Assembly (NCBI GenBank): GCA_949286885.1
Contig: CASEEG010000052.1
Coordinates: 1-51,521, forward strand
DNA from: an uncultured bacterium
GTDB taxonomy: Bacteria; Cyanobacteriota; Vampirovibrionia; Gastranaerophilales; Gastranaerophilaceae
DNA length: 51,521 nt
Direction of reading: 5' to 3'
A model generated the notes under the pieces. That model worked only from the letters and a program-made list of their open reading frames with translations, did not search any database and was not told the DNA's origin. The first letter of the stretch is position 1, and every line of letters begins with the position of its first letter. Below, in pieces: positions 26,788 through 30,425 of the stretch. The translations under genes were made by a program, and so were the position numbers.

Positions 26788-27270
26788 ATGAATATGGAAA
26801 ATAAACCGAAAAAAATTAACACTACCCGTTTTGGTGAAATAGAAATTGACAAAAATCTTTTATTTGAGTTTGTTTCACCAATAATAGGATACAATGATAA
26901 GAAGTGTTTTGCTTTGGTAGACTATAGACCGGACTCACCTTTTAAGTGGCTACAATCTACTGAAGATATGGATTTAGCTTTCCCTGTAACACTTTGCAGC
27001 TATTTCAATATAGACTACCAATTTGAACTTAGTGATGAAGATGCAAAAATTCTTGATATAAAAGATGCAAACGAAATTCTTGCACTGAATATCGTCACAA
27101 TACCTCAAATAAATCCACAAGGTGCTACAATAAATCTTCTTGCTCCCATTATTATTAACACAACAAACAACAATGCCATGCAGGTAATTTTAAAAGATAC
27201 AAAATTCCCTGTTAGACATCCTCTTTTTGATAAAGAAGAAGACAAAAATGCTGATAAGGGTGCAAAATAA
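26788..27270 (+). CDS. fliW: Flagellar assembly factor FliW
   Basis: Binds flagellin and antagonises CsrA, coupling flagellin secretion to its translation. The family signature is seen from TRFGEIEIDKNLLFEF through the SPIIGYNDKKCFALVDY stretch, with WLQSTEDMDLAFPVTLC and the usual NLLAPIIINT end. About 160 residues, normal for FliW. The ATG at 26788 is chosen because the preceding in-frame codons are inside the TPR gene and begin at GTG 26752 without ribosome binding site. The stop overlaps the csrA ATG by one base, so the pair is translationally coupled. Confidence 0.94.
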   Translation: MNMENKPKKINTTRFGEIEIDKNLLFEFVSPIIGYNDKKCFALVDYRPDSPFKWLQSTEDMDLAFPVTLCSYFNIDYQFELSDEDAKILDIKDANEILALNIVTIPQINPQGATINLLAPIIINTTNNNAMQVILKDTKFPVRHPLFDKEEDKNADKGAK

Positions 27271-27533
27271 TGCTTATATTGACAAGAAAATTAAACCAAA
27301 AATTAATTATAAACGACAACATTGAAGTTGTCATTCTTGAAACGTATAAAAATGCGGTAAAAATAGGCATAAAAGCACCAAATAATGTCCAGGTATTTCG
27401 CGAAGAAATTTATCGCGAAATCAAAAAAGCAAATGAAATGTCAAAAATTGCAGATATTAAAGCCATTGAGAGTATAAATATGTCAAAAACCCAGGGTTTC
27501 AATCTTGCGGATAAGCTAAAACATAAAAGTTAA
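27270..27533 (+). CDS. csrA: Carbon storage regulator CsrA with C-terminal extension
   Basis: RNA-binding dimer that blocks translation by covering GGA motifs in leaders. The core MLILTRKLNQKLIINDNIEV is canonical, and the RNA-contact element is V42-F43-R44-E45-E46-I47. It is 87 residues against the usual ~60-75, with about 25 extra residues after the core (MSKIADIKAIESINMSK...). It follows fliW with a one-base overlap. Two flagellin genes lie just downstream on the opposite strand, and both leaders have matching GGA sites, consistent with control by FliW-CsrA. Confidence 0.96.
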   Translation: MLILTRKLNQKLIINDNIEVVILETYKNAVKIGIKAPNNVQVFREEIYREIKKANEMSKIADIKAIESINMSKTQGFNLADKLKHKS

Positions 27534-27534
27534 A

Positions 27535-28140
27535 ATGCAGCAAAGAGCTAGAGATTTATTCTATAAAGGATGTTATACGGGGGCACTGGAGATTTTTAGT
27601 GCTTGTAATTTATATTACGAGGCAGGATTATGCGCGCTTTTAACTCAAGACGAATATGGAGCAAAAAAATTTTGGACAATTGAAAAAACTCCCGATATTG
27701 CTACAAAATGGGGGTTAATAGTACTAAATATAATTCACTTAAAAATAAAAGAACGGCCATCTTTTTTTCAAGTACGGGCATTTCTTGAGGTTTATTTGAA
27801 CCTTTTTATAGAAAATAAACTTTTAAAATGGGCAGAAAATTTAATAAGTGCTTGCGATATTTTAGCAAAATCAAATCCTGAAACATATAAATTTATTGCA
27901 AGAGCATTGTTTGCAAACGGATATTTAGAACTTTCGCATAAATTTTTGGATGAATCTAAAAAACTTTTTTATAATGATCCTGAAGCACATTTTATTGACT
28001 CTCAAGCATATTTTCTTGAAAAAAAATACGACAAAGCCCTTAAAAGTATTAATGAAACGCTGGAAAGTGCTCGTGGATATTACCCTGCGGTAGAATTTAA
28101 AAAAATTATTGAAAAAAAAATAAACCCCCAAGCCAAATAG
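27535..28140 (+). CDS. TPR-like hypothetical protein
   Basis: A 201-residue all-helical, probably cytoplasmic protein of unknown function. Helix pairs resembling TPRs are visible: ARDLFYKGCYTGALEIFSAC at the start and EAHFIDSQAYFLEKKYDKALKSINETLE near the end. It begins one base after the csrA stop, without a clear ribosome binding site. Its position beside fliW and csrA suggests a flagellar role, but nothing in the sequence proves it. The 3' end lies under a hairpin that serves the convergent flagellin gene. Confidence 0.8.
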   Translation: MQQRARDLFYKGCYTGALEIFSACNLYYEAGLCALLTQDEYGAKKFWTIEKTPDIATKWGLIVLNIIHLKIKERPSFFQVRAFLEVYLNLFIENKLLKWAENLISACDILAKSNPETYKFIARALFANGYLELSHKFLDESKKLFYNDPEAHFIDSQAYFLEKKYDKALKSINETLESARGYYPAVEFKKIIEKKINPQAK

Positions 28141-28174: not shown

Positions 28175-29050
28175 TTATATTAATGACAATGCAATGTTTG
28201 GTTGTTGGTTTGCTTGAACCAATAGAGAAGCTGATGCTTGTTGCAGAATTTGGTTTTGAATGTAGTTTGATGATTCTGTAGCAATGTCAGCATCTGTAAT
28301 ACGTGAATTAGCAGCTGATAAGTTTTCATACTGAGTATCAAGTTGTTCGATTGCTGAATCTAATCTGTTAGAAACAGAACCGATTGTACCGCGTCTTGTT
28401 GAAATTTCGGTAATTGCTTCATCAAGTGCGTCTAGTTGACCTTGCATAGCAGTCAAAGCAGCGGCAGCGTCAGTGTGACCTGCAAATTTTGATGTAAATG
28501 CACCAGTACCTGTTAAGGTTGAAACATGTGCATCGTTAAACACACCTGAAATTTCAATTGTGTTTGTAGCTCCATCTGAACCTGTACCTATTTGAAGCGT
28601 AACTGTTTCATCTGCACCGTCACGTGTTTCACCGCCAAACAAATCGAATGTGTTGTACTTAGCACCCGTTGCAATTCTGTCAATTTCAGCTAAACGAGCT
28701 TGTGCTTCTTCTTGCATAGCTTGTAACTGTTCATCTGTTTGACCACCGTTCATAGCTTGCAAAGTTAAGTCACGAATACGCATAAAGTTGTCTTGCATAA
28801 CTGCAAGGTTGCCTTCTGCTGTTTGCAATAAGTTAATGCCTGATTGGGCATTGCTTTTTGCAACAGATGTACCACGAGTTTGAACTTCAATACCTTTTGA
28901 AATTACCAAGCCTGCAGCGTCATCTGCAGCAGAATTGATTTTTGAACCCGTTGTCATCCTTTGCATAGCGGTGTTCATTGCATCTGTAACCCTATTCAAG
29001 TTGTTTTGTACTTGAATTGATTGAACGTTTGTGTTAACCACAATAGCCAT
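28175..29050 (-). CDS. fliC: Flagellin 1
   Basis: Filament subunit of 291 residues. The conserved D0/D1 N-terminus begins VNTNVQSIQVQNNLN and RMTTGSKINSAADDAAGLVIS; the C-terminus has SRITDADIATESSNYIQNQILQQASASLLVQANQQP. The D2/D3 centre is short (about 120 residues), so the filament surface is probably small. It is a close paralogue of flagellin 2, with near identity in the termini. The leader has a GGAGA ribosome binding site and an upstream GGA element (see regulatory sites). A terminator follows on the minus strand. Confidence 0.97.
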   Translation of the reverse strand: MAIVVNTNVQSIQVQNNLNRVTDAMNTAMQRMTTGSKINSAADDAAGLVISKGIEVQTRGTSVAKSNAQSGINLLQTAEGNLAVMQDNFMRIRDLTLQAMNGGQTDEQLQAMQEEAQARLAEIDRIATGAKYNTFDLFGGETRDGADETVTLQIGTGSDGATNTIEISGVFNDAHVSTLTGTGAFTSKFAGHTDAAAALTAMQGQLDALDEAITEISTRRGTIGSVSNRLDSAIEQLDTQYENLSAANSRITDADIATESSNYIQNQILQQASASLLVQANQQPNIALSLI

Positions 29051-29058
29051 AATCTGAA

Positions 29059-29089
29059 TCTCCTTTCGATTGACTAAATACTTCCTTGT
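29059..29089 (-). promoter_or_regulatory. Two-site CsrA-type operator in flagellin 1 leader
   Basis: On the minus strand ACAAGGAAGTA (29089-29079) resembles the CsrA consensus RUACARGGAUGU. The second GGA is in the ribosome binding site GAAAGGAGA (29067-29059). The two GGA cores are 22 nt apart, a spacing bridging by a CsrA dimer allows. The same arrangement recurs before flagellin 2. Confidence 0.65.
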
Positions 29090-29128
29090 GTATACACTTG
29101 TAATTCACGCTTAGCGCAAATTACTAAC

Positions 29129-29156
29129 AAGTTTTGTTTATTTTTTTACAAAACTT
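29129..29156. repeat. Inverted repeat upstream of flagellin 1
   Basis: A perfect 9-bp inverted repeat (AAGTTTTGT / ACAAAACTT) with a ten-base T-rich loop. It sits between the terminator of flagellin 2 and the leader of flagellin 1. A related but shorter GTTTT-AAC-AAAAC element lies upstream of flagellin 2. Confidence 0.6.
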
Positions 29157-29174
29157 AAAGTTTTTTGAGATACA

Positions 29175-29208
29175 AAAAGCCCTTAAACCGGCGTGGTCAA
29201 GGGCTTTT
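29175..29208 (-). terminator. Terminator of flagellin 2
   Basis: A perfect 10-bp stem (AAAAGCCCTT / AAGGGCTTTT) with a 14-base loop, followed by T-rich DNA on the minus strand (the strand of flagellin 2). It lies 40 bases after the flagellin 2 stop and so separates the two tandem genes. Confidence 0.85.
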
Positions 29209-29248
29209 GCTTGATGTGTATAATTAACAATTATTAATAATATGTTAA

Positions 29249-30130
29249 TTATATGAGAGACAATGCAATGTTTGGTTGTTGGTTTGCTTGAACCAATAAA
29301 GAAGCTGATGCTTGTTGCAGAATTTGGTTTTGAATGTAGTTTGATGATTCTGTAGCAATGTCAGCATCTTTAATACGTGAATTTGATGCTGATAAGTTTT
29401 CATACTGAGTATCAAGCTGATCCATAGCAGATTCTAATCTGTTTGAAGTTGAACCGATTGTACCGCGTCTTGCAGAAATTTCAGTAATTGCTTCATCAAG
29501 TGCGTCTAGTTGACCTTGCATATCAGCCAGTCCATCAGCTTGGCTTGCAAAACCTGCAAATTTAGATGTAAATGCACCTGTTCCGGTTAATGTTGAAACA
29601 TGAGCGTCATCAAATACATCAGAGATTGTTATAGTATCTACAGCAGAATTTGAGCCTGTACCGATTTGTAAAGTAACTTGCGTATCAGCACCTGATTTTG
29701 TACGATCTGAACCGCCAAACAAGTCAAATGTATTGAATTTTGCACCGGTTGCAATTCTGTCAATTTCAGCTAAACGAGCTTGAGCTTCTTCTTGCATAGC
29801 AGTTAGCTGTTCATCTGTTTGACCGCCGTTCATTGCTTGCAAAGTCAAGTCACGAATACGCATAAAGTTGTCTTGCATAACTGCAAGGTTGCCTTCAGCA
29901 GTTTGTAACAAGTTAATGCCTGATTGGGCATTGCTGTTTGCAACCTGAGTACCACGGGTTTGAACTTCAATACCTTTTGAAATTACCAAGCCTGCAGCGT
30001 CATCTGCAGCAGAGTTGATTTTTGAACCCGTTGTCATTCTCTCCATAGCGGTGTTCATTGCATCAGTAACCCTATTCAAGTTGTTTTGTACTTGAATTGA
30101 CTGAACGTTTGTGTTTACTACGATTGCCAT
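29249..30130 (-). CDS. fliC: Flagellin 2
   Basis: Filament subunit of 293 residues, closely related to flagellin 1. The termini are nearly identical to those of flagellin 1 (RMTTGSKINSAADDAAGL and QILQQASASLLVQANQQP) and the centre differs mainly around residues 150-210, e.g. GGSDRTKSGADTQVTLQIG. An AAGGAGA ribosome binding site is preceded by a second GGA element 19 nt upstream. It is the 5' member of the tandem pair on the minus strand, with 295 bases of non-coding DNA upstream. Both genes look intact. Confidence 0.97.
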   Translation of the reverse strand: MAIVVNTNVQSIQVQNNLNRVTDAMNTAMERMTTGSKINSAADDAAGLVISKGIEVQTRGTQVANSNAQSGINLLQTAEGNLAVMQDNFMRIRDLTLQAMNGGQTDEQLTAMQEEAQARLAEIDRIATGAKFNTFDLFGGSDRTKSGADTQVTLQIGTGSNSAVDTITISDVFDDAHVSTLTGTGAFTSKFAGFASQADGLADMQGQLDALDEAITEISARRGTIGSTSNRLESAMDQLDTQYENLSASNSRIKDADIATESSNYIQNQILQQASASLLVQANQQPNIALSLI

Positions 30131-30425
30131 AGTTGTAAATCTCCTTATTTTATGTTTACTTCCTTGTTTTTGGCATTAAAACCTTTGTCAGAACCGCATT
30201 TAAAATGAAGTTTTAACAAAACTGATAACTATTCCTATTCAAAGGTTTTTTACCTTTGACAGCACGATACTTTATCGCAATAACACCTAAATGGAGATTA
30301 TGCGGGGAAATACTTACTGTCATCATTGTCAATATTTAAGAAATTGTCTTCCTTGCCTTTGACATTACCATATTAAAACTTTTAATAATTGATTTTAACT
30401 ATAACAGTGTTTGATATTTCTCATA
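30131..30425. other. Non-coding region upstream of flagellin 2
   Basis: 295 bases between flagellin 2 and the CCA-type enzyme gene, with no ORF or RNA gene seen. It holds three direct copies of a TGWCAAAGGY-type motif on the minus strand (30190-30181, 30261-30252, 30364-30355) and an 8-bp hairpin at 30239-30259. I could not place a convincing sigma-28 promoter, though a GCGATAA element occurs at about 30270-30280 on the minus strand. Confidence 0.6.
30139..30167 (-). promoter_or_regulatory. Two-site CsrA-type operator in flagellin 2 leader
   Basis: On the minus strand ACAAGGAAGTA (30167-30157) is identical to the element of flagellin 1. The second GGA is in the ribosome binding site AAGGAGAT (30146-30139). 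The GGA cores are 19 nt apart. Confidence 0.65.

Follow-up and report, generated by a model that had tools for sequence, protein, structure and literature searches.

Paired CsrA-type sites in two adjacent flagellin leaders suggest a FliW-CsrA-flagellin loop in Gastranaerophilales

The window, by which we mean the whole stretch of 51,521 nucleotides that was analysed, is contig 52 of an assembly of 1.58 Mb (128 contigs, 88.7% complete). It carries fliW and csrA side by side (26788-27533), and two flagellin genes lie downstream of them on the opposite strand (Table 1). In the CsrA-FliW complex 5dmb, the FliW chain is a relative of the window FliW (E 3e-13), and the CsrA chain aligns with residues 2-70 of the window CsrA. 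When FliW was compared with named genomes, three loci were found with identities of 80-81%. Two belong to Candidatus Gastranaerophilales, an order within Melainabacteria, and one to an uncultured bacterium. The two flagellins are close paralogues, with 96% identity over a 138-residue N-terminal query. A reading frame of 201 aa lies between csrA and the flagellins (27535-28140, plus strand) and gave no Pfam match at E 0.001. The Rfam search of the window at gathering thresholds gave no match.

Table 1. Genes and proposed CsrA sites of the flagellin region, in window coordinates
Feature	Position	Strand	Basis and remarks
fliW	26788..27270	+	Pfam FliW; start set at ATG 26788; upstream GTG 26752 in ORF list
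csrA (87 aa)	27270..27533	+	Pfam CsrA; overlaps fliW stop by 1 base; R44, I51, N55 present
flagellin 1 (291 aa)	28175..29050	-	ORF and Pfam
flagellin 1 Shine-Dalgarno GGA, proposed proximal CsrA site	29061..29063	-	22 nt 3' of distal GGA
distal CsrA-type site, flagellin 1 leader, ACAAGGAAGTA	29079..29089 (GGA 29083-29085)	-	sequence; genus conservation
flagellin 2 (293 aa)	29249..30130	-	ORF and Pfam
flagellin 2 Shine-Dalgarno GGA, proposed proximal CsrA site	30142..30144	-	19 nt 3' of distal GGA
distal CsrA-type site, flagellin 2 leader, ACAAGGAAGTA	30157..30167 (GGA 30161-30163)	-	sequence; genus conservation

An earlier note on this DNA had pointed out that both flagellin leaders contain the same 11-mer upstream of a GGA-containing ribosome binding site. 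The 11-mer was found exactly in both leaders, and the two GGA-to-GGA spacings that the note had given were the same when remeasured. Its likeness to the CsrA consensus RUACARGGAUGU was also borne out, as 10 of the 12 positions agree by eye in both sites (consensus from an excerpt of PMC7652899). The note had placed fliW and csrA a few hundred to 2,000 bases away; their nearest ends are 1.5-2.9 kb from the two sites. According to the same excerpt, CsrA bridges two sites over a range of 10 to 63 nt with an optimum above 18 (PMC7652899). The window spacings of 19 and 22 nt lie within this range, and one GGA of each pair is over the Shine-Dalgarno sequence. Besides these two copies, the 1.58 Mb assembly contains the exact 11-mer once more, inside fliJ (Pfam FliJ), for a total of three. 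Two matches in the window alone are not beyond chance when one mismatch is tolerated, since 30 of 100 shuffles have as many. The weight rests on the position of the sites and on their conservation.

The flagellin search within the genus covered 15 genomes. The relatives' leaders were aligned for any loss of the element, as the earlier note had proposed, and the distal site is kept in all 22 orthologous genus leaders that could be read and recurs in several other families. The 22 leaders are 10 of type 1, 10 of type 2 and two of genome G388, which were missed by the start finder and read separately. Among the first 20, 17 have the exact 11-mer and one each has ACAGGGAAGTA, ATAAGGAAGTA and ACAAGGATGTA. 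In the flagellin 2 leaders (n=10), the invariant columns are 11/11 in the element, 3/10 in the spacer before the ribosome binding site and 40/163 upstream. The corresponding values for the flagellin 1 leaders are 8/11, 8/12 and 19/161, so that the element is no better kept there than the spacer. For three of the 22 leaders (L075, L079 and L080), the stretch examined contains no fliW, and genome G274 has fliW-csrA with no adjoining flagellin. The flagellin matches of G388 (L078 7623-7979 and 8640-8978, minus strand) begin only at residue 20 or 26. An intact-looking start and leader are present upstream of both, and an assembly frame error is a possible explanation.

The comparison was extended to 186 flagellin leaders from 88 genomes of the class, which are the rows among the matches listed plus the genus rows rather than every flagellin. 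The repeats L061, L084 and L085 and the FlgL loci L069 and L083 were left out, as were flagellins for which no start could be located, including the two of G388. In the score used, the GGA is obligatory and seven further consensus positions are counted, with a maximum of 7. A score of at least 5 was reached by 62/186 flagellin leaders and 2/186 upstream control windows (3.75 expected from dinucleotide shuffles), and a score of at least 6 by 38/186 leaders and no control window (0.46 expected); many leaders are from related genomes and the counts are thus not independent events, and the choice of leader window and score was made with the genus leaders already inspected. Of the 62 leaders with a score of at least 5, 56 have a GGA-GGA spacing of 18-26 nt, inside the bridging range given in the excerpt of PMC7652899. 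The score was also applied to 147 reading frames, taken from the genus loci and from 20 fliW-csrA loci outside the genus. It is at least 6 for 16 of the 17 flagellin leaders, while none of the 130 non-flagellin frames, which include mutual orthologues and maybe non-gene frames, reaches 5. At the latter threshold, 124/186 flagellin leaders are without a site. These include 39 of the 42 leaders of family f7, whose genera g45, g54 and g65 have both FliW and CsrA and show a site in none of 11 leaders. In another f7 genus, g68, GGA lies in the loop of a different hairpin in 9/27 leaders versus 2/27 control windows.

Hairpins with GGA in the loop (score at least 6) are found in 33/186 leaders against 7/186 control windows, with 2.6 expected, and AGGA-loop hairpins are seen in the leaders of some relatives. 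In genus g14, the site forms the loop of a hairpin of 10 pairs, for example ACTGTTTACA-AGGA-TGTAGACAGT. Over seven leaders, 97% of the cells of this hairpin pair, two pairs are changed on both sides and the innermost pair is broken in 2/7. The covariation is modest, since its score was reached by 2 of 500 shuffles and the number of both-side changes by 169 of 500. Both window leaders were folded, another check suggested in the earlier note. A hairpin-loop position of the distal GGA is usual in systems of this kind, though not obligatory. The distal GGAs of the window are in no stable hairpin and are nearly unstructured by prediction (z +1.20 and +0.21). The Shine-Dalgarno GGA of flagellin 1 is predicted to occupy the loop of an AAUC/GAUU hairpin. 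This helix is invariant and hence without covariation support, and no covarying pair emerged when a consensus fold was computed for the flagellin 1 leader. The AC and GU of the window distal site could close a six-base loop, as in the selected CsrA ligands described in the excerpt of PMC7652899.

The genome of the window has further flagellins. In the third (contig 34 type), another hairpin with GGA in its loop appears to serve the same end. In the genus, GGA is in the loop in 11/13 leaders of this flagellin, the exceptions being L057 and L068. The counter gives two pairs changed on both sides of this hairpin; one counted cell belongs to L068, which is without the hairpin, and this leaves L062 with the one convincing change. 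All 13 genus leaders of this flagellin (L038 and orthologues) also contain a conserved block, TTGTATATTAACAATGTAGTCAATCA, that begins 140-170 nt ahead of the flagellin start. The fourth flagellin (contig 109 type) is without the consensus site. Its leader (L037 1360-1490) contains no ACARGGA site, and a GTGTGGAAAAAC stretch lies near the Shine-Dalgarno sequence in most genus members. The same leader has TAAA-N15-TTCGA, which we take to be a sigma-28-like pattern.

FliW is above the cut-off in 129/382 genomes of the class, and all 129 also have CsrA. V/I51 and N55 of CsrA are contacts of FliW in C. jejuni and R44 is RNA-binding, according to the excerpt of PMC7829508. Both V/I51 and N55 are present in the window CsrA, together with R44, and in all 20 FliW-linked CsrAs sampled from 20 genera. 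N55 is found in none of seven CsrA domains from four of the eight genomes that have CsrA without FliW. I51 does not discriminate because five of these seven domains have it. Two CsrA domain matches per open frame are present in the FliW-less loci L185 (G032), L186 (G038), L188 (G111) and L189 (G040). The second match is weak in L189, and N55 is absent from the examined domains of L185, L186, L188 and the single-domain L187. The double-domain frames possibly encode a single-chain CsrA. For tandem CsrA, nothing relevant appeared among the matches listed from the openly licensed literature.

Sites are not significantly fewer in the leaders of FliW-less genomes. A score of at least 6 was found in 36/170 leaders of genomes with FliW versus 2/16 of FliW-less genomes (Fisher p = 0.53), and a score of at least 5 in 58/170 versus 4/16 (p 0.58). 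At the level of leaders, a dependence of the sites on FliW is thus not statistically supported. The FliW-less sites are in 2/2 leaders of G351 (91% complete), 1/2 of G068 (78% complete) and one f8 leader. Both FliW-less leaders scoring at least 6 (L135 and L136) belong to G351, in which no fliW or csrA was found. It is possible that csrA-fliW of G351, at 91% completeness, was left unassembled; a gap or a loss would both fit.

A strict two-site pattern (ACAAGGAWGT, 4-20 nt, AGGAG) was searched on both strands of 286 genomes of the order, with the reversed pattern as a control; weaker CsrA targets would be missed by it. It gave 74 matches, 47 before flagellin and 2 before fliD, compared with 24 for the reversed pattern. 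All 49 flagellin and fliD matches are in genomes with FliW, and the remaining 25 are about as many as the 24 of the control. In the 105 genomes known to have FliW there are 56 matches (43 at flagellin) versus 9 reversed, and a flagellin match is present in only 36 of these genomes because the pattern is strict. The 169 genomes without FliW gave 12 matches versus 15 reversed and none at flagellin; this zero says little, because only five of them (G169, G292, G321, G351 and G360) have a flagellin hit. With these five genomes and a leader contrast that is not significant, the reading that dual flagellin sites are absent from FliW-less genomes was found to be weak. The leaders of fliD, the filament cap gene, in L260 (G391) and L264 (G389) of family f14 have the same two-site CsrA-type arrangement, and Pfam FliD_N was confirmed for L260, the one fliD locus tested. 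Counted over all 382 class genomes, 131 of the 144 with a flagellin hit (E <= 1e-15) have CsrA, as do 6 of the 238 without. It is conceivable, and we put it forward only tentatively, that CsrA in this class is a dedicated switch of filament genes rather than a global regulator.

Both window flagellin leaders are very probably under FliW-CsrA-flagellin control through a two-site CsrA operator, as judged from the sequence comparisons. Two parts make up the operator, and both are visible as sequence: a ACAAGGAAGU element at the distal position and, 19-22 nt further downstream, the Shine-Dalgarno GGA. The flagellin transcripts would start upstream of ACAAGGAAGUA and so carry the distal site. A CsrA dimer would bridge both sites and thereby block ribosome binding, and FliW would bind CsrA and lift the repression. 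Unsecreted flagellin would sequester FliW, so that flagellin would be translated only during its export. The loop proposed in the earlier note appears well supported by the conservation in 22/22 leaders, the flagellin-centred two-site pattern and N55 of CsrA, and the role of FliW is its weakest link.

Other explanations of the element were weighed. It might be an untranscribed DNA part of the flagellin promoter, either a spacer or a recognition sequence. Several genus members have a TAAAGTAT stretch before the flagellin 1 element, and we presume it to be comparable with the sigma-28-type -35 of the contig 109 flagellin. A sigma-70-like match at chance level (30176-30147, 9/12) also straddles the flagellin 2 element. 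However, the TAAA stretch is missing from the window and from some other genus members, and the sigma-70 promoter scan was at chance overall (7 found versus 7.3 expected). Moreover, the distance of the element to the ribosome binding site stays at 18-26 nt (56/62) across families despite differing upstream sequence, and the element lies in RNA hairpin loops of relatives more often than in controls. A promoter element is thus improbable.

The AAGGA core is purine-rich and looks like a Shine-Dalgarno sequence placed ahead of the true one, and the presence of the site shows no significant dependence on FliW. A standby or decoy ribosome-binding site unrelated to CsrA would account for these points. 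It would not account for the ACA and GU flanks, which are kept along with the core, nor for the absence of the element from all 130 other reading frames and its place as a hairpin loop in some relatives, and we consider it quite improbable. That the common 11-mer is a functionless relic of the flagellin gene duplication is hardly credible: flagellins 1 and 2 are indeed close paralogues, but the remainder of their two leaders diverged and the element did not, and it recurs in other families with other flagellins.

The two-site operator read by CsrA is the preferred explanation, and the comparison with relatives suggests that the same brake on flagellin production as in Bacillus and Campylobacter may act here, in a lineage that branches deeply to the side of the cyanobacteria. 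This would extend the FliW-CsrA flagellin checkpoint to non-photosynthetic relatives of cyanobacteria. In this lineage CsrA closely tracks flagella, and strict two-site operators are above chance only at filament genes. It could offer a simple setting in which to ask what makes up the CsrA regulon where CsrA is no global regulator. In the openly licensed literature, no paper was found that links CsrA with Melainabacteria, Vampirovibrio or Gastranaerophilales.

The arrangement is like that of hag in B. subtilis, where fliW adjoins csrA and the flagellin leader has two CsrA sites, one over the Shine-Dalgarno sequence (excerpts of PMC7652899 and PMC6529632). CsrA is of the N55 type in both. It differs from hag in its Gastranaerophilales lineage, in having two adjacent flagellins that both carry the operator, in a third flagellin that appears to use another hairpin, and in a distal site that is predicted to be weakly structured. 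The FliC-FliW-CsrA system of Clostridioides difficile is described as the same three-part network in a different lineage (excerpts of PMC11898703 and PMC8523840). The earlier note had stressed a diderm far from Firmicutes. Such an occurrence is not new in itself because flaA of the diderm C. jejuni is under the same control, with two GGA sites of which the second is over the ribosome binding site, and its leader structure is conserved with compensatory changes (excerpt of PMC4894983). According to the same excerpt, fliW is apart from csrA in Epsilonproteobacteria, whereas the two are adjacent in the window. C. jejuni CsrA is described as binding many flagellar mRNAs; in contrast, flagellin and fliD alone lift the strict pattern above chance here. 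The kind of system is already known from B. subtilis and from C. jejuni; the lineage is new, and so is the narrow range of its two-site targets.
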